IMG/VR virus record: IMGVR_UViG_3300031999_000182
Location: 1-24,832 of that record
Length of the DNA: 24,832 bases
From: a virus
Direction: 5' to 3' (one strand)
Notes under the pieces: model-generated
The model's input: the letters and a program-made list of their open reading frames with translations, nothing else
What the model was told of the DNA's origin: nothing
Database searches by the model: none
Part shown: one piece after another, positions 3,937-23,776 of the stretch
Layout of the letters: the number at the start of each line of letters is the position of its first letter
Position numbering within the stretch: the first letter of the stretch is position 1
Made by a program: the position numbers and the translations under genes

Positions 3937-4304
3937 TAGCCGATTCCTATTGTCATTTTCTGCCCGAAGAGGATTCCCTGACCGGCGGCATCGGCCAGCA
4001 TTCGTTTTCTTTTATATGTTTCTGCAAGGATTTTTTTTGCATCAATCTGCCTGCCTTCCAAATACTCACTCCACAAAGACAGATCCTCAGTCAGCCAGTA
4101 TCCTTCGCTTAAAGTCGCTACGATTCTCGCCCCTGCCTTGCGGAGCTGCTCGATAATCGCCCGCACGTGCCGACGCTGGGTCTCACGGCAGCCGGGCAGA
4201 TATAATCTCATTGCAAGCGTGGCGGCCGTCATCGGCATTTCGGCCTCTTTAAGAATCGTTAGGCACCTGGCCAGGTCTGAGCTTGTCACATTGACTTCAT
4301 TCAT
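3936..4304 (-). CDS. winged helix-turn-helix protein
   Basis: A 122-residue protein. Residues about 8-68 read as a winged helix: helix (D-L-A-R-C-L-T-I-L-K), a second helix (M-T-A-A-T-L-A-M-R-L), a recognition helix with R-E-T-Q-R-R-H-V-R-A-I-I-E-Q-L-R-K-A-G, then a wing (A-R-I-V-A-T-L-S-E-G-Y-W-L). The tail is charged and helical. It begins with an ATGA overlap with the Gam-like gene. In Mu the genes after Gam and GemA include the Mor activator; this protein has the right place for a middle or late transcription activator, but its sequence does not identify it as Mor. Confidence 0.65.
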   Translation of the reverse strand: MNEVNVTSSDLARCLTILKEAEMPMTAATLAMRLYLPGCRETQRRHVRAIIEQLRKAGARIVATLSEGYWLTEDLSLWSEYLEGRQIDAKKILAETYKRKRMLADAAGQGILFGQKMTIGIG

Positions 4305-4822
4305 TTCAAGTCCGCCGCCTCGACTTTATTTGGCTCGACGAAAAAGACGTCCTTTTCTTCCCGTCGGGCCGAGACCAAAGCTAATTCATCATCCGTGAGC
4401 TTCGCCATTGCCTCTTTATCTATGGATTCCTTTATGCGAACAACCTGCTTGATTTTCGATGGTGAGAATATTTCCTTGATAAGGGATAGCGTCTCTTTGC
4501 AGGTGGTGATAAAGGTGCTTTTTCGCCAGCCGAGAATGCCGAAATTTAACTTCCGGCTGCGTAATTTACCGAAGTCATCCGGATGGTTTGCAGCGAATGC
4601 CTCCATGCTTCGCGTATAAAGGTCTATTTTATCCTGAGCAATCTCTACTGCTAAAACAAGGTCCTTCTTTGCATCCTCGATTTTAGTCTTGGCTAATAAT
4701 TCCGCCTGTTGAATGCGGGTTTGTAATTGCCCTATTCGCAGGACCAACTCATCTACCTGCTGCCAATCTTTGATAATAATGAGAGGTATTTCTTTTGATT
4801 TAACTCGCCTGTTTTTGGCCAT
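4301..4822 (-). CDS. gam: Mu Gam-like double-strand DNA end-binding protein
   Basis: A 173-residue protein, close to the Mu Gam length. It shows the family layout: an N-terminal long coiled coil (V-D-E-L-V-L-R-I-G-Q-L-Q-T-R-I-Q-Q-A-E and onward to about residue 70), then L-R-S-R-K-L-N-F-G-I-L-G-W-R-K-S, a conserved Gam signature region, and a C-terminal helical segment. Mu Gam is a Ku-like protein that coats linear double-stranded ends and blocks host exonucleases, protecting transposition intermediates. A good ribosome binding site AAGGGAG lies eight bases before the ATG. It overlaps the end of the GemA-like gene by 23 bases. Confidence 0.88.
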   Translation of the reverse strand: MAKNRRVKSKEIPLIIIKDWQQVDELVLRIGQLQTRIQQAELLAKTKIEDAKKDLVLAVEIAQDKIDLYTRSMEAFAANHPDDFGKLRSRKLNFGILGWRKSTFITTCKETLSLIKEIFSPSKIKQVVRIKESIDKEAMAKLTDDELALVSARREEKDVFFVEPNKVEAADLK

Positions 4823-5521: not shown

Positions 5522-6649
5522 CTATCCTGCCTTTGCAACTGCCTGCTCGCCTTCCTCGGTTTCTTCTTTCGTTGCCAGCGGCAACCGGACCTTCACCGGC
5601 AGGTCAAGCTCTTCTATTATTTTTAATATTCCTTGTGAATCGATAATTCCTTCTCGAATAATTTTGGATGAGATATGCATGGCTGCTATTATATGGCCGC
5701 AAGTCCGCAATCTGCCGCTGCGTCCGGTCTTACAGATTTTCTGTAAGGTCTTCACCCCATCGCCTGTAAGTTTTAGACCGCCATATTCATAGAGTTGGCG
5801 GAGGTCATCGGCCGTATAAAGCCCACCGTCTTTGGTCGATGCCTTGGCGTCGAGGTCCAGCACCGCCATAAGCCGGGATGTGAACTGGTCCAGGGATTCG
5901 TAACCCCTACGTGTATTATCCTGCATAACAGTATCCAAAAGATGCCGGTTGCCGGCAAGGACTAACGGGCATCGTGATTTAACCACTATTATCTGGCGGA
6001 GCTGGTTGAGTTGTTTGACGGTCAAACTCGATGCTTCATCTAACATGATTACGATATGGCGGTTCTGCAGGTTGTCAATAAGCCGTCGCGTTACGCTGGC
6101 AAGTGACCCCGATGAATCGATACCTAATTTATGAGCAATCTCGGCGAATAGCATTGTCGAAGTCATTGCATCATCAAATTCTACAAAGACAGTATTCTTG
6201 TTTGCCTCGGAAAATTGCCTCAGGCAGTAGCTTTTCCCGTGCCCGCCGTCCCCTACGATAATGCCTATTTTGCCCTCTTCGTTCTTATCGCTGAATGATT
6301 CCGTTTGGGTTATAAGTGTGCGGATTTTTATCGCAACGGAAGTTTCAACGTATGAGTTTTTCTTGACCCGCGTCTCGTGTCGGGATACTGAATTTATCAG
6401 GTTCACGACCTTGTTCACGAGGTCGGTAAGATTGCCTTTATATTTACCGGCGAGAAACTGGCTGATTTGTGCGGGGCTTACCCCGATCGCCTCGGCCGCC
6501 TTCGTCTGGCTCCAGTTACGCTCTGTCAGAAAGGCCTGCAGACTCTCTGCTATTTTTTTCGCCTTCTGTTGGTTCAGGTCCATCGGAATCCTTTCTGTTA
6601 TTATCTGGCTGTCCTTTTCCATCTCCTGCTGGATATTATTTTCATTCAT
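5522..6649 (-). CDS. MuB-like AAA+ ATPase, target selector
   Basis: A 375-residue protein. Residues about 28-85 hold a helix-turn-helix (Q-T-K-A-A-E-A-I-G-V-S-P-A-Q-I-S-Q-F-L) as in MuB. The AAA+ core follows, with Walker A G-D-G-G-H-G-K-S at 133-140 and Walker B H-I-V-I-M-L-D-E-A at 198-206, then an L-A-G-N-R sensor-1 strand near 231-235. The C-terminal helical bundle extends to about 350. MuB forms ATP-dependent filaments on target DNA, stimulates the transposase and provides target immunity. The start codon overlaps the transposase stop (ATGAATGA), so production of the two is coupled. MuB of Mu is 312 residues; this one has longer N- and C-termini. Confidence 0.92.
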   Translation of the reverse strand: MNENNIQQEMEKDSQIITERIPMDLNQQKAKKIAESLQAFLTERNWSQTKAAEAIGVSPAQISQFLAGKYKGNLTDLVNKVVNLINSVSRHETRVKKNSYVETSVAIKIRTLITQTESFSDKNEEGKIGIIVGDGGHGKSYCLRQFSEANKNTVFVEFDDAMTSTMLFAEIAHKLGIDSSGSLASVTRRLIDNLQNRHIVIMLDEASSLTVKQLNQLRQIIVVKSRCPLVLAGNRHLLDTVMQDNTRRGYESLDQFTSRLMAVLDLDAKASTKDGGLYTADDLRQLYEYGGLKLTGDGVKTLQKICKTGRSGRLRTCGHIIAAMHISSKIIREGIIDSQGILKIIEELDLPVKVRLPLATKEETEEGEQAVAKAG

Positions 6650-8576
6650 CGAGCAATCTCACACCCTCAAATCGGTTTTTCGTTTTAAGAAGCGAAAAAT
6701 CCAGGTCAAGTCCTTCTCTCATCGATTCCGCCCCTGCCGCCTTCCTGAGGAGCTTGACTACTTTTTGCCTTTCATGCTCCGCCACCTGGTCATCGAGAGG
6801 GGTCCTGACCGGCTTTAATATTTGCGGTCCTCTGCTTTCTGCCTCCTCTTCTCTGCCTTCTGCCTTCTGCCTTCTGCCTTTTTCAACTTCCTGCATCGCC
6901 TTTATTGTCAGGGTTGTCAGGTCCATATTTCTCGTAAGCTCACTATTACGAAAATCCTTTGCGACCCGCAGGACCCTTCGTTTCTCGCGCATTGCATTTC
7001 GCAGAGATTCTTCGCTGATGGATGTTCCGTAATTAATAAGTTGGTTTTGTTCGGCGATAGTGATTAGTTTGAATGTCGCCACATCATAGATATAGGCCCT
7101 TCGAAGGTCATCAGGGTCATAAGAGATTCGAACCTTCCGCCCCTGGTGGATTAAAAGCTCAGCATTATACTGGCCATAGTATATTCCCTTGAACTGCACT
7201 CCGTTTTTGCCGACAATCAATTCGTGGCTCCATATCCGCAATAACAGGTCCACAACTCCCGGAGCGAGAACCCGGTGGATTCGGTGATTCTGGAATACCT
7301 CTGCAGGGCTTTGTTCCTGCATATCTTTGGCGCTGTGAGAATTGGCATTATAAACCTCGACGTAAGAGGCGAACAATTCCTCAAATTTCTCGAAAGATAT
7401 GGCTTCACGGATTGTGGCAGGGTCTTTAAGTTTCTCGACTAAGTCTTCCGGTTTTCGTTTGGTATCCTTGCCGCAATATAAATCGAAGGTCGCCGTGAAC
7501 TGCGAATCGATTGTTGCGAACAATCTCTCGATTCGTTTGGCCTTTGCATTAAAAGGTATCGCGAATGATACCGCGATATCCATCATCGCGAATATTCCAG
7601 CCAGTATTTTCTCATCCAGATATCCCTTGCCGAGTACCTTCCTCGGTCGCTTGGTTATGATCTCCCCTGTTGACTTCTTTACAATACAATCCTTGCCGAG
7701 TGCTTTCCTAACCTGTTTTGTAACACCGGTAAATAGTTCGCTGTCGTAATCCCTGCCGTTATCGATTTTGACCGATTCCGGTGGCCCGAATTTTTCGATT
7801 GCTCTTTTCATTGACAAAAGGATTGTCGTCTGGTTTGGAATGATTGATAGATACCAGCCGACAATCATCCTGCTTTTAAGGTCCTGCCAGACCGTCATCC
7901 AGGGCCGCACTAATCTATTTTGATAATTGACCCAGCAGTTAAACTGGCTGTGATCTCCGACCCAGACCTGGTTCGGCTCGATGCTGTCGGGGTCAATTTC
8001 GATATAAGGTGCGCATTTTGCCTCGTAGGCCGCCAGGCCTTCGCGGTGCAGGACACTGACTGCAAGTGGTATCCGGTCCTTGACGATTCGATACATCATA
8101 GATAATTCCGGTATCTTCCAGCCACGTTTTTGTGATTGGTTGATGTAGTTGATATTACACCAACAGGTTTTTAACGGCAGTTGCTGCTGGGTCAGATATA
8201 GTGACTTGAAAAACTCGAACGCCTCTTCGCTTATGATTTCGTTCTCGAACCTGCCTCCCCCGCGTTTATCGACAAGTCCCAAAAGTCCCTGCTGATGATA
8301 TTTTGCAAGCCATCGGTATAAAGTGGTTCTGGTTAATTCCTGATTGCCGGCGACAAACAGGTCTATCGCATCTCTCTTTGTCGCGTCGTTTTGCCTGTGG
8401 AATTGATTGAATTGCTGAATGATTCCTAATCGGCGAATTGCCTTATCTCTTTTGGATGCGGGGATATTGATAAGCTCCTCGGCAAGCTGGTTTTTTTTCT
8501 CTGTGCTCTCTGCCTGCCCTGCGTAGCCCGCAGGATGAAGCGGGGTGTTTTCTGTGGCTAAAGTTTGAACGGTCAT
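6642..8576 (-). CDS. MuA-like DDE transposase
   Basis: A 644-residue protein if started at 8576, where ATG overlaps the upstream stop as ATGA; the frame is open to 8648 but that would bury 76 bases of the upstream gene. Domains in order: helix-turn-helix N-terminal region (about 40-110, with Q-E-L-T-R-T-T-L-Y-R-W-L), RNase H-like catalytic core with D208 (W-V-G-D-H-S), D272 (K-I-D-N-G-R-D) and E350 (K-R-I-E-R-L-F-A), and the Mu-type C-terminal beta-barrel at about 453-543. The tail, about 545-644, would contain the MuB-interacting region. It catalyses strand cleavage and transfer for integration and replicative transposition. Two segments, near residues 9-29 and 566-582, are encoded by dispersed repeats and look like tolerated insertions. 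The barrel has a separate duplicate at 21243-21551. Confidence 0.95.
   Translation of the reverse strand: MTVQTLATENTPLHPAGYAGQAESTEKKNQLAEELINIPASKRDKAIRRLGIIQQFNQFHRQNDATKRDAIDLFVAGNQELTRTTLYRWLAKYHQQGLLGLVDKRGGGRFENEIISEEAFEFFKSLYLTQQQLPLKTCWCNINYINQSQKRGWKIPELSMMYRIVKDRIPLAVSVLHREGLAAYEAKCAPYIEIDPDSIEPNQVWVGDHSQFNCWVNYQNRLVRPWMTVWQDLKSRMIVGWYLSIIPNQTTILLSMKRAIEKFGPPESVKIDNGRDYDSELFTGVTKQVRKALGKDCIVKKSTGEIITKRPRKVLGKGYLDEKILAGIFAMMDIAVSFAIPFNAKAKRIERLFATIDSQFTATFDLYCGKDTKRKPEDLVEKLKDPATIREAISFEKFEELFASYVEVYNANSHSAKDMQEQSPAEVFQNHRIHRVLAPGVVDLLLRIWSHELIVGKNGVQFKGIYYGQYNAELLIHQGRKVRISYDPDDLRRAYIYDVATFKLITIAEQNQLINYGTSISEESLRNAMREKRRVLRVAKDFRNSELTRNMDLTTLTIKAMQEVEKGRRQKAEGREEEAESRGPQILKPVRTPLDDQVAEHERQKVVKLLRKAAGAESMREGLDLDFSLLKTKNRFEGVRLLDE
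6831..6880. repeat. heptamer repeat TTCTGCC, inside transposase gene
   Basis: An imperfect run of TTCTGCC-type 7-base units. On the minus strand it is read in frame and encodes the G-R-R-Q-K-A-E-G-R-E-E-E-A-E-S-R-G stretch between the beta-barrel and the C-terminal domain of the transposase, probably a flexible charged linker. Confidence 0.85.
8496..8564. repeat. composite dispersed repeat inside transposase 5' end
   Basis: CTCTGTGCTCTCTG is followed by CCTGCCCTGCGTAGCCCGCAG, GATGAAGCGGGG and TTTTCTGTGGCTAAAG. The CCTGCCCTGCGTA part recurs at about 12727-12741 and 13012-13025. It is read in frame into transposase residues of about 9-29 (A-T-E-N-T-P-L-H-P-A-G-Y-A-G-Q-A-E-S-T-E). Confidence 0.75.
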
Positions 8577-9052
8577 TTCTGGAAATGCCTTACAAGGCAC
8601 TCTATCGCCACATTTACGACGTTTAATGCCTTTTGCAAATTGAGCCAAAGTTCGCTCGTTTCAGGCGTATATTCCTGGTCATATTCTCTCCCGGGCCCGG
8701 TTACTATCGGCGCCGGCTCCGGCAATTCGTTAAGTTGTATCCATTTGCCCGAAGAATGATATTGTCCGATTGGTGACAAATCCTTCATCGGTGATACGAA
8801 GGAATTACCATCCGAGCCGATTTGTTTTATCGGATATTTTTGGTATTTATGGATGACCCAACGGCACTGGTTCTCTCTCTTGAATTGGACGACTTCATAG
8901 CCACAGTTACATTTGGAGCAGTATCCTAAATATGTCCTGAACTCCGTATGGTATCGGTTTGTCTGCGATGGCAGGACCTTGGTGCCCGGCATTTGCACGA
9001 AGCATTCAGGGCAAACCACCGCCTCAATTGTTATTGTTTGTTCATTGTTCAT
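8573..9052 (-). CDS. zinc-ribbon protein upstream of transposase
   Basis: A 159-residue protein. The N-terminal 50 residues hold a treble- or ribbon-like set of cysteines: C-P-E-C near residue 14, then Y-C-S-K-C-N-C-G-Y-E near 44-52. The rest is polar, with a C-terminal amphipathic helix (L-W-L-N-L-Q-K-A-L-N-V-V). It is joined by ATGA overlaps to the gene above (9049-9052) and to the transposase below (8573-8576). This close coupling suggests a DNA-binding helper or regulator of transposition; the function is not known. Confidence 0.7.
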   Translation of the reverse strand: MNNEQTITIEAVVCPECFVQMPGTKVLPSQTNRYHTEFRTYLGYCSKCNCGYEVVQFKRENQCRWVIHKYQKYPIKQIGSDGNSFVSPMKDLSPIGQYHSSGKWIQLNELPEPAPIVTGPGREYDQEYTPETSELWLNLQKALNVVNVAIECLVRHFQK

Positions 9053-9262: not shown

Positions 9263-9290
9263 ACCCGTGTTAATCTGTGTTAATCCGTGT
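9263..9290. repeat. decamer repeat GTGTTAATCY
   Basis: CCGTGTTAATCTGTGTTAATCCGTGTC, also seen at about 9757, 10091, 12780 and 16853. It lies immediately upstream of the 68-residue minus-strand gene. Confidence 0.85.
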
Positions 9291-9324
9291 CCAATATTTT
9301 TTTGTTGTTTCCAAATTCAAAAAA

Positions 9325-9429
9325 CCAAACCTTACCTCACCATACCGCGCCATACCTGACCTCACCTTACCAAACCAAGTCGGACCTCGCCTCGCCAAAC
9401 CTCGCAGCGCCAGACCGTACCAAACCTCA
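9325..9429 (-). repeat. 21-unit degenerate pentamer array YNNGG
   Basis: Read on the minus strand, 105 bases divide without a single slip into 21 five-base units: TGAGG, TTTGG, TACGG, TCTGG, CGCTG, CGAGG and so on to TTTGG. Position 1 is always a pyrimidine. Position 4 is G in 20 units and position 5 is G in 20, the exceptions being CGCTG and TCCGA. Positions 2-3 vary freely. The first unit contains the TGA stop codon of the transglycosylase-like gene. The array would be in the transcript between that gene and the 68-residue gene. It is not coding. Confidence 0.9.
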
Positions 9430-10089
9430 TCTAATATTTTTTATTTTCTCCCAATAACCATCGACATCTTTTCCCCGCCAGCCGGCGGGTCCGTAATGAA
9501 AAATCCTTGCTGAAATTTCTTCGAGATTATTATCGAGGTACATTGTGATGTATAGTTTTGCGACGAGCTTTGCCTTCTTGATGTCCCGCATATCATCGAG
9601 GGTGAAGTTCAGTCCGAACCGTTGATTGACGTCCGTAAGGGCTTCCTGATGAATTTGCAGGGGTCCTACCGCCCTGCCGCCGTCCCCATCGGGCGGATTG
9701 AGCCGTCCTGATGATTCCTGTTTCCAGATTTTATCGATGAGATCGTTCAAGAAATCTGTGTTAATCTGTGTTAATCCGTGTCTGACTTGAAAGGATTGGT
9801 CGGCGGCTGGGGGTCCGCCGCCGACCAGGCATCCATCTGCGATGCGGTATGATGACGCCGGCAGGCCTGACCCTTCAGACCTACCGGAATTGGAAGGAGG
9901 ATTATTATGAGTATCGATTTCCCACTCCGCTCGGGGATGGCTTACGCCACTGGAAGCAGGATTCTTTTCCGGGGCGGGGGCACGGCCCCCCGTCCCAGTC
10001 AGGAGAAACAAAATTAAGGAGAGAATAATTCCGAGGACCATTCCCACCCTAAATCCTCTTATAAAGTTAATTTTCCGTTCATCATTCAT
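9427..10089 (-). CDS. membrane-anchored lytic transglycosylase-like protein
   Basis: A 220-residue protein. A transmembrane anchor lies at residues 13-31 (R-V-G-M-V-L-G-I-I-L-S-L-I-L-F-L-L). A low-complexity Pro/Gly/Ser linker follows to about 105. A lysozyme-like SLT domain covers about 112-218: I-W-K-Q-E-S-S-G-R with probable catalytic E125, G-G-R-A-V-G-P-L-Q-I at 137-146, and a closing H-Y-G-P-A-G-W near 198. Such enzymes cleave peptidoglycan for genome entry or host lysis; here it sits in the early operon, which would be early for lysis. The linker includes R-H-G-L-T-Q-I-N-T-D-F, encoded by the GTGTTAATC repeat at 9757-9783, and a GGTCGGCGG hairpin at about 9803-9831. No Shine-Dalgarno sequence precedes the start. 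Confidence 0.75.
   Translation of the reverse strand: MNDERKINFIRGFRVGMVLGIILSLILFLLTGTGGRAPAPEKNPASSGVSHPRAEWEIDTHNNPPSNSGRSEGSGLPASSYRIADGCLVGGGPPAADQSFQVRHGLTQINTDFLNDLIDKIWKQESSGRLNPPDGDGGRAVGPLQIHQEALTDVNQRFGLNFTLDDMRDIKKAKLVAKLYITMYLDNNLEEISARIFHYGPAGWRGKDVDGYWEKIKNIR
9757..9783. repeat. decamer repeat GTGTTAATCY inside a gene
   Basis: TCTGTGTTAATCTGTGTTAATCCGTGTC copies the repeat at 9263 and 16853, but here it is read in frame as part of the linker of the transglycosylase-like protein. Confidence 0.85.
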
Positions 10090-10689: not shown

Positions 10690-10937
10690 CACATCCTAAG
10701 CTTTGCCTTTGCTTCGCGAAGCAAAACGGCGCCTCGCCTTTGCTTTGCTTTGCCATACAATACTCCGCATTCGCATCGCGTTGCAATGCGTCTCTGTGCC
10801 TTTGCTTTGCTCTGCCACACAATACTCCGCATTCGCATCGCGTTGCAATACGTCTCCGTGCCTTTGCTTTGCTCGGCACCACTATGATAGACATTGCCTT
10901 CGCTTTGCTTTGCCCTACGGTGCCGAACAATGCCCCG
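10690..10937 (-). repeat. long degenerate pentamer array YNNNG with a 62-bp tandem duplication
   Basis: On the minus strand the sequence after the TAG of the RAMP-like gene splits into units CGGGG, CATTG, TTCGG, CACCG, TAGGG, CAAAG, CAAAG, CGAAG and so on for nearly 250 bases, with occasional 6-base units. Most units start with a pyrimidine and end with G, the same phase as the array at 9325-9429. Inside it, 10741-10802 and 10803-10864 are a tandem 62-base duplication with about four differences (60 bases plus two slips). Reading frames across it on both strands are open but low-complexity and I do not regard them as genes. Confidence 0.85.
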
Positions 10938-11513
10938 CTATTGCAATTCTTTCCAGTCAAAGCGGCCATAACTCGCATTACGCCACTGGCCTAATCCCCG
11001 CCATTGTCCATAATCGAGCCATAACTTTACGGCCTTTTCGAGTTTCTTATCGAGGCAGATAATCTCGAATTCAATCTTTGAGCCGGCGGGTGCCGATTCC
11101 GAACGGGCAAGGGCTATTCGTTCTCCCTGTGCCGTCTGGGCCCGAAGAGGCCGTTCCAGAATTGTTATCTCTCCTGAAAGTCGAATTGGTATTTTGCGGG
11201 GTTTGACAAATACCAGGCCATCAATGAGTTTCTTATGTGCCTTTAACTGGTTCTCCTTGGTCATTGTGCGGTTCAACATCCCCGCAGCGTCCTTTAGAAA
11301 ACCCTTAACCTGGTAATCCCAGAGAAAAGGTATCCCATCCTCCAATCGCATAAACACGGTAGAGGATTTCTTAATGTCCTCCTCCGGCAAGGATTCTATT
11401 TCGTCCTCTGCCACACCTTCCGGTCTTTTGCCCAGGATGAATTCAGTGGCAAGCTCCTTATTGCCTGAACAAGTGGCCAAAAGTGGTTCTGTGAATATTA
11501 ATTCGATTTTCAT
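10938..11513 (-). CDS. RAMP-like (Cas7/Csm3-fold-like) phage protein
   Basis: A 191-residue protein of unknown function. The N-terminus, K-I-E-L-I-F-T-E-P-L-L-A-T-C-S-G, matches the first strand plus 'PL..GSG' turn of RAMP proteins. At 62-80, P-F-L-W-D-Y-Q-V-K-G-F-L-K-D-A-A resembles the 'P-x-I-P-G-S-S-L-K-G-A-L-R' segment. At 143-155, A-G-S-K-I-E-F-E-I-I-C-L-D resembles the RAMP 'G-T-x-F-x-x-E-I' strand. Near the end, G-Q-W-R-G-L-G-Q-W-R-N-A-S-Y-G-R-F resembles the glycine-rich loop. Related-looking proteins are, to my recollection, common in Mu-like phages without a function. AAGGAG lies 13 bases before the ATG. It is the second gene of the early operon, so it acts early; RNA or DNA binding is a reasonable guess. 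Confidence 0.75.
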   Translation of the reverse strand: MKIELIFTEPLLATCSGNKELATEFILGKRPEGVAEDEIESLPEEDIKKSSTVFMRLEDGIPFLWDYQVKGFLKDAAGMLNRTMTKENQLKAHKKLIDGLVFVKPRKIPIRLSGEITILERPLRAQTAQGERIALARSESAPAGSKIEFEIICLDKKLEKAVKLWLDYGQWRGLGQWRNASYGRFDWKELQ

Positions 11514-13046: not shown

Positions 13047-13079
13047 CATGTTAATCAGTGTTTTAGTCAGTGTGAGTCA
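13047..13079. repeat. repeat TTAATCAGTGTTTTAGTCAGTG
   Basis: ATGTTAATCAGTGTTTTAGTCAGTGTGAGTCAGTG runs directly into the GTG start of the ATPase gene. An almost identical copy lies at 14468-14503 on the other side of the same gene; related sequence occurs at 23712-23776. Confidence 0.85.
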
Positions 13080-14417
13080 GTGATTACTAATCAGTTAAAT
13101 CTCGGCAGTATTCAGATACCTATCAATGCGGCGACTAAGACCTTCGCTATCCTGGCCAAGCGGGGCGCCGGCAAAACCTGGACGGCGGCGGTGATGGCCG
13201 AGGAGCTTTTCAAAAACGGCATTCCCTTCGTCGTTTTCGACCCGATTGATGTTTGGTGGGGTTTGCGTCTGACTGCAAACGGCAAGGATGCAGGCCTGCC
13301 GGTAGTTGTATTCGGGTTGGAGCACGCCGATATTCCTCTCGACAGGGACATGGGCAGGACAATCGCCCAGGCAATTGTCAGGGAGAACGTTTCCTGCGTT
13401 ATTAATACCTTCGGGATGCCCAAAGTCGCCCAACGTCATTTGATTGCCGAATTCGCTGAGGAACTTTTGAATATCAATAACACCCCTCGTCACGTCTTTA
13501 TCGAGGAAGCGCACGAGTTCGTTCCTCAGCATGTATTTGGCGGGCTTGGTAAGACCTTTAATTCGGTCAGCAATCTCGTAGTGATGGGCCGCAACAGGGG
13601 TATTGGCGTTACCTTGATTAATCAGCGGGCCGCCACGATTAACAAGGATGTTCTCACCCAGCTCGATACGTTACTCGCCTTTCAAAATGTCAGTCCTCAG
13701 GACCGCAAGGCACTCAAAGATTGGGTGGAATTTCACGCGGCGGAAGGCGACTTTGAGAAGTTTATGGCATCTTTGCCGTCTTTACCGAAAGGTGAGGGCT
13801 GGATTTGGTCACCTGAATTTCTCGGTATCTTCGAGCGAATCAAAATTCGCAAACGCGAGACTTTCCATCCGGACCGCGAAAAAATCGGCGATAAGTTCAC
13901 AATGCCGGAGTTTGGCCAGACCGATATTCAGGCCTTCATCGGCCGATTCGCCCGGTCTTTAGAGGATGGCAAAAAGAAAAAAGGTTCACCTGAAAAATCA
14001 CCTGTTGCCGGCGTTCAGGAAGAGTTTAAACCAAAAGAAAATCCGGAGTTGCTCGCCTTTCGCAATGAATACGAATCTAAACTTATGCAGAAGGATATCG
14101 AGCTAAGGAAATTGAGGGAGATACTCGAGCAAGTCCGCAGGATTGTCGATGGTTCGGGCGGTAATCAATCTCTCTCTGTACCTATTTCTGTAGGAAACAA
14201 TGTTGAGGAATGGTTAAAAAAATTAGGTAATGGCGGCGCTTCTCGAATTTTCAAGTTCCTGGCAGAAAAATCAGGAATGAAATTCACCAAGTCCCAAATT
14301 GCTTTGGCGGTCCGGCTTCGGATATCCGGAAGTTTCAATACTTATTTATCTACCTTGAAAAGAACCAATCTTATTGTTAAGGATGGTAATTTTTTCAGTA
14401 TAAACCCTGATTTATAA
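13080..14417 (+). CDS. HerA-like ATPase (FtsK/HerA superfamily)
   Basis: A 445-residue protein. Walker A is A-K-R-G-A-G-K-T at 26-33, Walker B H-V-F-I-E-E-A-H at 138-145, and G-R-N-R-G-I-G-V-T-L-I-N-Q-R at 170-183 matches the arginine-finger/sensor block of HerA and DUF87/DUF853 ATPases. A charged coiled segment near 320-350 and a C-terminal winged-helix-like region (about 385-440) follow. These enzymes form hexamers that move double-stranded DNA, often with a NurA nuclease or another effector; no such partner is adjacent. The GTG start lies in a dispersed repeat without a Shine-Dalgarno sequence, but the Walker A position requires a start here. Same-type repeats flank the gene on both sides, suggesting a cargo gene. 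Function in the phage unknown. Confidence 0.85.
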   Translation: MITNQLNLGSIQIPINAATKTFAILAKRGAGKTWTAAVMAEELFKNGIPFVVFDPIDVWWGLRLTANGKDAGLPVVVFGLEHADIPLDRDMGRTIAQAIVRENVSCVINTFGMPKVAQRHLIAEFAEELLNINNTPRHVFIEEAHEFVPQHVFGGLGKTFNSVSNLVVMGRNRGIGVTLINQRAATINKDVLTQLDTLLAFQNVSPQDRKALKDWVEFHAAEGDFEKFMASLPSLPKGEGWIWSPEFLGIFERIKIRKRETFHPDREKIGDKFTMPEFGQTDIQAFIGRFARSLEDGKKKKGSPEKSPVAGVQEEFKPKENPELLAFRNEYESKLMQKDIELRKLREILEQVRRIVDGSGGNQSLSVPISVGNNVEEWLKKLGNGGASRIFKFLAEKSGMKFTKSQIALAVRLRISGSFNTYLSTLKRTNLIVKDGNFFSINPDL

Positions 14418-14420
14418 CTC

Positions 14421-14503
14421 CGTGAAAATCAGTGTAATCCGTGGTTAAAAAGGATTTTAGATAAGTCCATGTTAATCAGTGTTTTAGTCAGTGTATTTCA
14501 GTG
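14421..14503. repeat. two dispersed repeats after the ATPase gene
   Basis: CTCCGTGAAAATCAGTGTAATCCGTGGTTAAAA at about 14418-14450 and ATGTTAATCAGTGTTTTAGTCAGTGTATTTCAGTG at 14468-14503; the second matches the sequence before the ATPase start at 13047. Confidence 0.85.
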
Positions 14504-14522
14504 TTCAAGAAAGGAGTCTTTT

Positions 14523-16831: not shown

Positions 16832-16852
16832 TTTTTTATGACAAATTTTGCC

Positions 16853-16924
16853 GTGTTAATCTGTGTTAATCCGTGTCTGATTTTGTTTTTTAATCTCTGT
16901 GACCTCTGTGGTCTCTGTGGCTAA
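16853..16924. repeat. two adjacent dispersed repeats before the small terminase gene
   Basis: GTGTTAATCTGTGTTAATCCGTGTC at 16853-16878, then CTCTGTGAC, CTCTGTGGT, CTCTGTGGC, TAA at 16895-16924, ending two bases before an ATG that has no Shine-Dalgarno sequence. Confidence 0.85.
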
Positions 16925-18851: not shown

Positions 18852-21250
18852 GCGAGCAAGCAAATAAATTAAGTCCCGAAGCCGCTTCAATGTTGCGGAC
18901 CGCCGTTGACAGGCAAATCGAATCGGCAGGCAAAAGTATTGGTTTAAGCCAGCTCGCCCATATCTGGCTGACCGGCGGCGATCTGACCGATTCTTCATTA
19001 AGTAAACCTACAAAGCCATATAAGCAGGTCGATCTTGTCTTTGCTTGCATTACTAAAATCATAACTACGATGCTGGGCCTGCCTTTGGTCATTTCCACGG
19101 TAGATGAGAAGATTATCGAATCCGGCCCTGCGTGGGAAGTGCTCTTTAAAAACCCGTTAATGACCTTCAAAAAGTTCGTTATCGATTGGGTCGGTCATTA
19201 CGCATTGACCCGCGATGTCTTTATCGTCTTCACCGAATCGGCCGGCATTCGCCCGACCGAGTTTCTTATCATCTCCGGCATTCAGATGAATCCTATTACT
19301 GATAAAGGCGGAAATCAGGGTGAGTTGCTCGGCTGGGAATTTCGCGGTGGCGGTGGCAGAACAGAAAAATTTACGACACTTGATGTCCATCAGACCCGGA
19401 ATTTCAATCCTTACGATCGCTTTCATGGTATAGGTCCTGCAACTGCCGCTGAGCAGAGCATAAATTACACCTACGCCGCCGAGTTATTTAATGCCGCCTC
19501 TTTACAAAATGGAGCTGAGCCGGGTCCGATTCTTATGGCACAAAATCGAATGGAACGTGAACAAGCTGAATCCCTTCGTTCTCAATTCGATGCCCGTCAT
19601 CAAGGCGCAGGTAAGGCAAAACGGACGGCTATTTTAACGGGCGGTCTGGATATTAAAACAATTGCTATGAACATGGTCGATATGGACGTTGCTAATTTGA
19701 TGCAGATTTCCGACAAAAAAATCTGCTCTGCCTTCGGCGTCCCGCCCGGCGTAGTCGGTCTTATTACTGAAGCGCAGTATTCTCACGGTCCCGCCCAGGA
19801 GGATTTTATCTTCAATACGATAATCCCGATTGCCGAACTTTTCGCAAGTGAGATTACCGATGGCATTTTATCAAGGTTCTGGTCATCTGATGTTCGCTCT
19901 CTGGAATTAAAAGAGAGCAGATTCGGGAAATCTTCGCGGTTCAAAAATTTGTTTATGAATCGTTCTTGGCGGGAGGCCTGTCAGAAAGCGGTCGCAAATA
20001 ATCAGCAGGTCTTTGCCTGGTTCGATTATAATCAGCATCCGGTTGTTCAGCGAGTCAAGAGAGAGCAGGCGGAGCAGGTGCTGAAGTTCACCGCTTCCGG
20101 CGTTACTTTGAACCAGCTTATCGCTGCCCACGATTTGCCTTACGAGGAGACCGCGTGGGGCGAGCACTGGTGGGTTCCTATGGGTCAAGTCCCTGCTGCT
20201 TTTACTCTCGAAGCCGGTCTCGAAGGAATGACCGGTCCTATCCTGCCGGAAGGGGGGACACCCATCGAAGAGGAACCAAAATCCATAGACAATTCTGAAA
20301 TCATCCAAAAAGACGAGATACGAGATACGAAAAACGATGAACGGAATTTGCGTCTTTGGCGAAACTGGACCGCATCCTGGCTCGGCATTGAAAGGGAATA
20401 TCAAAGTTCCCTGCGATTATTCTTTATTCGCCAGCAACGAGTTCTGATTTCAAAATTACGCCAGTCATTAAATCCTGAATCACGAACCACGAACCGCGAA
20501 CCACGAACCGCGAGCCACGAATCACGAGCCACGAATGACGAAGTTATAGCCCGCGTAACTTTGGACCTAAAATCCGAAGATAACAAACTTGTCATTATTC
20601 ATCGCAGTTTCTTTTACAAGGCAAGCGAGCTTGGTGTTCGTCAGACTCTTGTCGAGACCTTGAATCTGGCCGGTTCGGAATTAAATATACGTGTTGAGCA
20701 AGTCAAATTAAAGCAGGTGATTCACAGGGCATTGATTCGGTCTTCTCAAAACCTAAAACTCGTCAATCCCAATACACAGAAAAGGATTGCTAATCAATTG
20801 CGGGAAGGTCTTGAGGCAGGTGAGGGCATAAATGAACTTGAATCGCGTATCCGCGTGGAATTGGGTTCTAACCGTGCAAAAGCATTACGCATCGCTCGCA
20901 CCGAAACCGGCAGCGCCGTCAGTGCCGGCAGGCACGCGGGGTTGGAGGCCTCCGGAGTGAAATTAAAAAGCTGGCTTTCTGCCCGTGACAAGGCCGTCCG
21001 CGACTCACACAGGGAGGCCGAGGCGACTTATGCCGATGGCATTCCTCTCGACCAGTCCTTTAAGGTCGGTTCGAATGAAACGGGTTGGTTTAATTTGCTA
21101 TATCCCGGCGATCCGGGGGGTCCACCTCAGGAGATTATCAATTGTCGTTGTGTCGAACTTGCCAAAATGCCGTCAGGCAAGGAAGTTCAGCAATTTTACA
21201 TTTATGAAAAAATGCAAATAGATAAATCAAAAGGAGACAAAAATGGGTGA
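18848..21250 (+). CDS. HK97-type portal fused to MuF head-morphogenesis domain
   Basis: An 800-residue protein. Residues about 50-400 read as an HK97-type portal: Q-V-D-L-V-F-A-C-I-T-K-I, G-I-G-P-A-T-A-A-E-Q-S-I, K-K-I-C-S-A-F-G-V-P-P-G-V-V-G. The second half is a MuF (SPP1 gp7-like) domain: R-I-A-R-T-E-T-G at about 680, S-A-R-D-K-A-V-R-D-S-H near 712, and P-G-D-P-G-G-P-P-Q-E-I-I-N-C-R-C near 753-767. Portal and MuF are usually separate adjacent genes, so this is a fusion. Two stretches (about 488-499 and 545-565) are encoded by heptamer arrays. It starts TTG in a TTGA overlap with the terminase stop. It forms the DNA entry ring of the capsid. Confidence 0.92.
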   Translation: MSEQANKLSPEAASMLRTAVDRQIESAGKSIGLSQLAHIWLTGGDLTDSSLSKPTKPYKQVDLVFACITKIITTMLGLPLVISTVDEKIIESGPAWEVLFKNPLMTFKKFVIDWVGHYALTRDVFIVFTESAGIRPTEFLIISGIQMNPITDKGGNQGELLGWEFRGGGGRTEKFTTLDVHQTRNFNPYDRFHGIGPATAAEQSINYTYAAELFNAASLQNGAEPGPILMAQNRMEREQAESLRSQFDARHQGAGKAKRTAILTGGLDIKTIAMNMVDMDVANLMQISDKKICSAFGVPPGVVGLITEAQYSHGPAQEDFIFNTIIPIAELFASEITDGILSRFWSSDVRSLELKESRFGKSSRFKNLFMNRSWREACQKAVANNQQVFAWFDYNQHPVVQRVKREQAEQVLKFTASGVTLNQLIAAHDLPYEETAWGEHWWVPMGQVPAAFTLEAGLEGMTGPILPEGGTPIEEEPKSIDNSEIIQKDEIRDTKNDERNLRLWRNWTASWLGIEREYQSSLRLFFIRQQRVLISKLRQSLNPESRTTNREPRTASHESRATNDEVIARVTLDLKSEDNKLVIIHRSFFYKASELGVRQTLVETLNLAGSELNIRVEQVKLKQVIHRALIRSSQNLKLVNPNTQKRIANQLREGLEAGEGINELESRIRVELGSNRAKALRIARTETGSAVSAGRHAGLEASGVKLKSWLSARDKAVRDSHREAEATYADGIPLDQSFKVGSNETGWFNLLYPGDPGGPPQEIINCRCVELAKMPSGKEVQQFYIYEKMQIDKSKGDKNG
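20310..20344. repeat. heptamer array GATACGA in portal gene
   Basis: AAGACGA, GATACGA, GATACGA, AAAACGA, TGAACGG: five 7-base units read in frame as K-D-E-I-R-D-T-K-N-D-E-R-N, between the portal and MuF parts. Confidence 0.85.
20481..20543. repeat. nine-unit heptamer array CACGAAC in portal gene
   Basis: Nine contiguous units: CACGAAC, CACGAAC, CGCGAAC, CACGAAC, CGCGAGC, CACGAAT, CACGAGC, CACGAAT, GACGAAG. Read in frame they give a polar Thr/Arg/Glu/Asn linker in the fused portal-MuF protein. Confidence 0.92.
21221..21245. repeat. 25-bp direct repeat, copy 1
   Basis: GATAAATCAAAAGGAGACAA followed by AAATG; matches copy 2 at 21554-21578 in 23 of 25 positions. Contains the ribosome binding site and ATG of the transposase-barrel paralogue and the last codons of the portal gene. 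Confidence 0.9.
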
Positions 21251-21551
21251 ACAAAAAATACATAAATACCAATTGATTGTCAGCAAGACCGGTGTGCATT
21301 TTAAGGGAAGATATTATGGTCAATATAATATTGAACTTCTGGCATATCAGGGCAAGATGGTCCAATTATCTTACGACCCTGATGACCTTCAAAAGGTCTA
21401 TCTCTACGATGCGGTAACTTTCAAATTGATCACAATCGCAAAGCAAAACCAACTTATTCCTTACGGGACTGTCACTGAAGAATCCCTGCGAAATACAATG
21501 CGTGAGAGCCGAATATTTCGGCGGGCAGCAAAACAAATGCAAAAATGTTGA
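21243..21551 (+). CDS. stand-alone Mu transposase C-terminal beta-barrel paralogue
   Basis: A 102-residue protein that aligns without gaps except one residue to the C-terminal beta-barrel of the transposase encoded at 6950-7221 on the other strand; about 60 of 90 aligned residues are identical, including Y-Y-G-Q-Y-N, S-Y-D-P-D-D-L, T-F-K-L-I-T-I-A and E-E-S-L-R-N. DNA similarity is also clear (for example CTGCGAAAT-CAATGCG). It has no catalytic DDE core. A strong AAAGGAG site precedes the ATG. It lies between portal and protease in the late operon, where Mu-like phages normally have morphogenesis genes, so it is made late. It may compete with or modulate the transposase, or serve in the virion; neither is shown. 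Confidence 0.9.
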   Translation: MGEQKIHKYQLIVSKTGVHFKGRYYGQYNIELLAYQGKMVQLSYDPDDLQKVYLYDAVTFKLITIAKQNQLIPYGTVTEESLRNTMRESRIFRRAAKQMQKC

Positions 21552-23711: not shown

Positions 23712-23776
23712 AACTTAGTCAGTGCTTTTGTCAGTGTTTTTGTCCGTGTTTAAGTTAGTGTTTAGTCCGTGTTTTC
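23712..23776. repeat. GTCAGTGTTTTTGT-type tandem repeat
   Basis: Runs of 'agtcagtgcttttgtcagtg' type, with five copies of TTAGT/TTTGT-CAGTG or -CCGTG, related to the repeats at 13047 and 14468, fill the gap between capsid and next gene up to the ribosome binding site AAAGGAG. Confidence 0.85.

Follow-up and report, generated by a model that had tools for sequence, protein, structure and literature searches.

A probable VIPR locus in a Mu-like phage, with a single-domain RAMP gene and same-strand pentanucleotide arrays

Background

A preprint of 2026 put forward VIPR (Viral Interference Programmable Repeat; PMC13142463, bioRxiv 2026.04.26.720920) as an RNA-guided lineage that predates CRISPR and whose guide code is noncontiguous. 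The characterised systems are those of Escherichia phage SUSP1 and of a Pseudomonas fulva prophage (type II). The SUSP1 system comprises a phage RAMP protein, Vipr, and vrRNAs of 9-16 YNNGG repeats (GGY/NN) plus a structured tail; each five-base repeat spans three bases of the DNA target, two of which its NN pair reads and one of which is skipped. The vrRNA transcripts of VIPR are ~100 nt long, have the structured tail at their 3' end and co-purify with Vipr. VIPR represses competing phages, and the SUSP1 vrRNAs are proven guides (PMC13142463). An accessory vap gene is "typically" present, SUSP1 satellites carry guides in trans, seven VIPR types are distinguished, a "related consensus" and "staggered arrays with overlapping vrRNAs" are mentioned, and the RAMPs of Class 1 CRISPR are regarded as relatives of Vipr (PMC13142463). 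Another compact phage-borne RNA-guided system, TIGR-Tas (PMC12045711), likewise has a tandem guide array beside a single protein gene.

The locus described here lies in a window of 24,832 nucleotides (IMG/VR record IMGVR_UViG_3300031999_000182), the whole stretch of DNA that was analysed, which may be a fragment of a phage genome. It is very probably a VIPR system of a Mu-like phage: a Vipr RAMP with same-strand noncoding guide arrays, which would act as a DNA-binding repressor of rivals. Having been reached independently from raw sequence, it corroborates the coupling of RAMP gene and array in a Mu-like phage.

The RAMP-like gene and its phage context

The gene is defined by the open reading frame list, a family alignment, an AlphaFold2 model, fold matches and remote homology to SUSP1 Vipr:

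10938..11513, minus strand: vipr-like gene for a single-domain RAMP of 191 aa, with an RRM core, a thumb hairpin (residues ~117-141) and the glycine-rich loop GLGQWRNASYGRF (residues ~172-185)

The open reading frame runs from ATG to stop with exactly the boundaries given by a first-pass annotation, which a model had made from the sequence alone. The gene is upstream of, and on the same strand as, those for MuA (6642-8648, PHROG E 2.2e-94), MuB (5522-6649, PHROG E 4.7e-42) and Gam (4301-4822, PHROG E 1.1e-21), that is, in the early (transposition) half of a Mu-like phage, as the annotation had placed it. A HerA/DUF87-type ATPase gene (13080-14417, plus strand) lies on the opposite strand to the vipr-like gene.

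Relatives of the protein are encoded in at least 259 IMG/VR viral stretches (34 were found in the first search), and one viral homologue already carries the annotation "Cas system-associated RAMP superfamily protein"; plasmid records contain no match for the family. The invariant columns of an alignment of 29 homologues include L12, then D66, Y67, G71 and K74, and finally G169, G173, W177, R178 and G183. The first-pass annotation had recognised the protein by four segments that it took for RAMP hallmarks; all four are present and conserved in the alignment, and they are real conserved blocks, since most of the invariant columns fall within them. No neighbouring gene family is conserved beside the RAMP gene in more than 24 of 94 loci, the commonest being an integrase by sequence, and, unlike the described VIPR loci, these 94 have no conserved accessory (vap) gene that could be seen beside the family.

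The AlphaFold2 model of the protein (pLDDT 84.7, pTM 0.79) supports a RAMP/Cas7-like fold. Foldseek searches of the PDB place Csm3, type VII Cas7 and Cas7-11 chains at the top (best E 7.5e-7), with 119 matches at E<=1e-3 that for Csm3 and Cas7 span residues 1-191, and VIA-align gives its top score with type VII Cas7 (8yhd; Z 12.5 over 160 residues). Thus the fold search on a predicted structure, by which the annotation had proposed that its RAMP/Cas7-like assignment stand or fall, returned a RAMP fold with a glycine-rich loop. By sequence, the link to known RAMPs is weak: Pfam and NCBIfam have no match for the protein, PHROG has a single match at chance level (E 0.4), and profile matches are limited to type VII Cas7 (E 0.012), Csm4 (E 0.026) and PADLOC Cas7_IIId, the last matching five of 29 family members (best 0.0016). 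HMMER matches to eS17 and TroA were discarded as chance.

Csm3 (type III-A), type VII Cas7 and Cas7-11 thus share with this protein the fold (Z up to 12.5), the glycine-rich loop, the thumb and a presumed RNA filament. With Csm3 and type VII Cas7 as the nearest solved folds, the locus could be a degenerate or orphan CRISPR-Cas remnant, its Cas7/Csm3 gene having become separated from a type III or type VII locus, but such an origin is very improbable: the family occurs widely in phages, where it is conserved, and has an array of its own, no other cas-like family occurs among the scanned open reading frames of the window, the window has no CRISPR-type repeats, and the residues at S50/S51, which an alignment made by hand suggests as the counterpart of the catalytic Asp region of Csm3, are not Asp. 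Class 1 CRISPR systems differ further in their 6-nt footprint and continuous spacers, and sequence identity to their RAMPs is ~10-16%.

The protein resembles Vipr in being a small single-domain phage RAMP with G-loop and thumb, lacking a second RRM domain and encoded in a minimal phage or provirus locus; within the family the G-loop is invariant. ALH47069.1 (195 aa) was taken as the Vipr of SUSP1 from its size, its neighbour and its flanking arrays. Alignment of the family profile to it by hhalign (E 0.001, 20% identity) runs through the G-loop (GVGDWR-GRF), and hmmsearch with the family profile gives 2.3e-5 (Z=1); the two proteins are remote homologues, although their sequence similarity is weak.

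Pentanucleotide arrays in the window

Two noncoding arrays lie on the strand of the vipr-like gene, the first identified from an array HMM and reading of the sequence, its internal duplication from Tandem Repeats Finder and a hand parse, and the second from a period-5 scan, the HMM and a parse:

10692..10938, minus strand: GC/NNN array (HMM score 83 nats), a predicted vrRNA-like guide array directly 3' of the vipr-like gene
10736..10874, minus strand: tandem duplication inside that array, a double unit of 62 bases (2 x 31) whose copies are 94% alike
9321..9431, minus strand: GGT/NN array directly 3' of the open reading frame at 9427-10089

The main array (247 bases) begins at the stop codon of the RAMP gene. 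Parsed by hand, it consists of 41 pentamers and 7 hexamers with an initial G in 47 of 48 units and the consensus GC-NNN; a 6-base step (GCAAAG, GCGAAG or GCGAAT) recurs every 5n+1 bases, with step-to-step lengths of 31, 36 and 41. The units of the array decode to triplets without stops, the duplicated unit as ACG/ACA GAC ATT AAC GAT GAA GGA ATT GTG/ATG AGA/AAA AAA. Short spurious open reading frames near the RAMP gene, in the window and in most relatives, share an odd composition, the DNA there being pentamer tracts. Rfam has no match in the window. The first-pass annotation had stated that the window holds no CRISPR array and no other Cas gene; neither a Cas family among the scanned open reading frames nor CRISPR repeats were found, but the adjoining pentamer array had been overlooked.

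The second array has 21 pentamers without steps, GG being present in 19 of 21 and mostly extended to GGT or GGC, and is the only region of the window above threshold in the period-5 scan (G statistic 94). On its sequence it fits the published vrRNA consensus GGY/NN. Decoding by the skip rule gives GAN TTN ACN CTN GCN GAN TTN GAN GAN CCN TTN TTN AAN GAN CAN ATN GCN ATN GAN AAN TTN. In this form the array can be read as a series of codons, the skip falling on the wobble position.

Linkage of gene and array among relatives

Arrays were detected with a cyclic HMM that expects G every five bases and allows one-base slips. As a positive control, this HMM, run blind, marks three places only on both strands of the 90-kb SUSP1 genome (KT454805), flanking the 195-aa gene and its neighbour (vipr/vap), in agreement with the published positions (PMC13142463); one rule therefore finds the SUSP1 arrays as well as those described here.

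Among 98 loci, 84 have a same-strand array within 1.5 kb of the gene, usually within 50 bases, and several of the 14 that the HMM missed show arrays by eye (e.g. L111, L042, L035); the window's own extract (L001), being in the opposite orientation, was scored as missing. Arrays were placed by the HMM on the 3' side only in 46 loci, on the 5' side only in 25 and on both sides in 5, the 3' arrays starting a median of ~8 nt past the stop codon and the 5' arrays ending mostly 25-75 nt before the start codon; in only 3 of 98 loci is an array elsewhere on the gene strand. Total array length per locus is 127-1350 nt. Over the first 250 nt beyond the 3' end of the gene, the word GCAA[AGT]GG has a density of 7.45/kb on the gene strand, compared with 0.04/kb on the opposite strand. 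GC being palindromic, GC-type arrays show on both strands, and G-only arrays, such as that of Hydrogenobaculum phage 1, on the gene strand alone.

A search of 2.9 million viral contigs that used only the array pattern found 20 stretches, and in 19 of these the gene lies within 1 kb of the array and on its strand. The exception (L120, IMGVR_UViG_3300033145_000771) has a GC/NNN array of ~110 bases, and its whole 56-kb contig encodes no Vipr homologue; by analogy with the satellites of SUSP1, it is possibly a satellite or phage whose guides act in trans.

The relatives include contigs binned with Planctomycetota, Eggerthellaceae, Oscillospiraceae and Coriobacteriales as well as Hydrogenobaculum phages, to all of which VIPR would thus extend. 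The pattern persists at 24% protein identity: in Hydrogenobaculum phage 1 (KP282676; L139, 3128-4592), the "hypothetical protein" ALG96927.1 is a Vipr homologue followed, from the first base after its stop codon, by a 694-base array of G-pentamers (G 86%, then T or A). Neither this protein nor its array is annotated as such in KP282676. Of nine loci of this type, the phage included, six have an array by HMM and the other three look similar by eye.

The first-pass annotation had suggested either an independent RNA/DNA-binding phage protein or a mimic that interferes with host CRISPR complexes. The former pointed in the right direction but was incomplete, the protein being coupled to pentanucleotide arrays and belonging with VIPR. 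An anti-CRISPR mimic that poisons host Cas7 filaments is compatible with a single-domain RAMP fold in a phage, but it would predict neither tight linkage to an array, nor strand polarity, nor a 5-nt grammar common to phages of very different hosts; nothing was found in its support, and it can hardly be credited.

Array grammar and turnover

In 13 strong loci, all 1409 G-to-G steps are of 5 (1202) or 6 (207) bases, the hexamers being GCAAAG (103), GCGAAG, GCAATG, GCAACG and a few others. Between hexamers there are mostly 4, 5, 6 or 7 pentamers, so that unit lengths are mostly 26, 31, 36 and 41, in increments of five; fewer than four pentamers occur in 6.8% of cases versus the 50% expected of a geometric distribution (p 1.7e-41). 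Cas7 subunits measure crRNA in six-base increments, which the five-base increments recall by analogy. To our knowledge, the Tas protein of TIGR-Tas is not a RAMP and its array is not of G-pentamers. Stated explicitly, as G every 5 nt and a 6-nt step every 5n+1, the grammar lends itself to scanning and testing.

Further arrays are found in L045 (5635-6116, 11329-11507, 12009-12368), L089 (4246-5109, 6880-7049, 7780-7924) and L063 (7093-7483), several of them at a distance from the gene and several being step-free GGY/NN arrays. Both grammars thus exist within one phage, as in the window.

The frame of the arrays is kept while their content turns over. Relatives with 91-95% identical genes have mosaic array blocks in common, in which aligned variable positions differ by 2-12%, compared with 18-30% at 4-fold silent sites of the gene. 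This low divergence may reflect either selection on content or a recent exchange of blocks. In the pairs L085/L096 and L153/L154, with genes 76-86% identical, the arrays have diverged beyond alignment.

Such turnover, like the failure to find a target (below) and the position of the arrays on the gene's strand in what is presumably its 5' or 3' UTR, is also what might be expected if the array were a scaffold or autoregulatory element, the RAMP coating its own mRNA UTR via the periodic Gs and the variable letters being uninformative. This alternative is improbable: the aligned variable positions differ less than silent sites, which recent block exchange could also bring about, in-frame stops are depleted and triplet statistics are coding-like (see below), and the vrRNAs of SUSP1 are proven guides (PMC13142463). 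No selected RNA secondary structure was detected in the arrays (fold z +0.5 versus frame-preserving shuffles).

Guide content and the decoding rule

When the GC/NNN arrays are decoded as N2N3N4 triplets, in-frame stops occur at 0.61 of expectation (0.88 and 0.84 in the shifted frames) and reverse-complement stops at 0.74 (0.91 and 0.80), and the triplet statistics of the arrays are similar to those of natural coding DNA. Pair statistics of N2N3 (r 0.84) and N3N4 (r 0.79) correlate with those of genomic bases at distance 1, and those of N2-N4 with distance 2 (0.80); mutational bias could account for these signals, the positions being adjoining, and pairs across the GC are the cleaner test. There, N4 with the next N2 (three apart) resembles genomic distance 1 (r 0.66, permutation p 0.037 and 0.05), and N4 with the next N4 resembles genomic bases 3 apart (p 0.02). 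N4 is conserved between relatives almost like N2 and N3. Because a position that is not read should carry no genomic signal, the signal at N4 counts in favour of its being read. Thus the pair statistics fit three consecutive target bases per pentamer and an informative extra variable base, which is suggestive rather than proof.

The main array differs from the VIPR arrays of SUSP1 in being GC/NNN without GG, "related" to GGY rather than strictly GGY, with one more variable base per pentamer, in its 6-base step (mostly GCAAAG) every 26-41 bases, and in the length that such arrays reach (up to ~1350 nt in all). This stepped grammar, which does not appear in the main text of the preprint (PMC13142463), may be new or may belong to one of the seven types distinguished there. 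The first G of GGY is constant in SUSP1, whereas at the equivalent position, the base before G, the GC/NNN arrays are variable (~25% G). Conceivably, although we rather doubt it, GC/NNN with the GCAAAG step constitutes a distinct VIPR guide grammar with units of 26, 31, 36 or 41 nt, in which this position too would be read, each pentamer specifying three contiguous target bases without a skip; if the third base is truly read, the code would be one of contiguous triplets, with a decoding rule different from that of VIPR.

Target searches

Comparison of all arrays with 2.9 Mb of related phage DNA (both strands counted), under five decoding rules and with shuffled controls, gave nothing beyond chance, nor did exact spaced patterns in viral contigs, wobble-masked patterns in 392 Planctomycetota genomes, or decoded peptides or DNA against phage records. 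The phage's own contig, searched in 5-nt-spacing geometry (not VIPR spacing), yielded no target. Extra matches in viral contigs from one spaced-pattern search proved to be a single gene with chance flanks. Nine repeats of the GGT array have seven exact matches in viral contigs (five different genes), all in an open frame and in codon register with the skip at the wobble position; agreement outside the searched core is about that of chance, so none of the seven is a proven target.

Proposed mechanism

Like VIPR, the locus combines its RAMP with same-strand noncoding tandem pentanucleotide arrays on the flanks, with constant and hypervariable positions; one of the arrays (9321-9431) is of the plain GGT/NN form. 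The analysis itself establishes the fold, the coupling of gene and array, the 5-nt grammar, the strand and position of the arrays and the remote homology to SUSP1 Vipr. The steps that follow, from transcription and processing of the arrays through RNP formation to DNA targeting and repression, and the identity of the targets, are extrapolated from VIPR. The arrays would be transcribed with the gene, on its strand, to yield vrRNA guides, on which Vipr would polymerise with roughly five nucleotides to a subunit, each pentamer being recognised by its invariant G and usually also by its C. The constant G(C) positions would thus hold the protein, and the variable positions would pair with three consecutive positions of the DNA target. 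The resulting RNP probably binds the dsDNA of rival phages or prophages and prevents transcription, as the VIPR of SUSP1 does.

Other features of the window

A 102-aa open reading frame (21243-21551, plus strand) between the portal-MuF fusion and the prohead protease closely resembles, by eye, the C-terminal region of the MuA encoded by this phage (FKG.YYGQYN.ELL..QG..V..SYDPDDL), and is apparently a stand-alone copy of Mu-transpos_C in the structural operon. Short intergenic tandem repeats were located by Tandem Repeats Finder at 9265-9290, 13051-13073, 14475-14505, 16851-16876 and 23715-23775; across the window they consist of related units of ~10-12 bases (AATCAGTGTT / CCGTGTTAAT).
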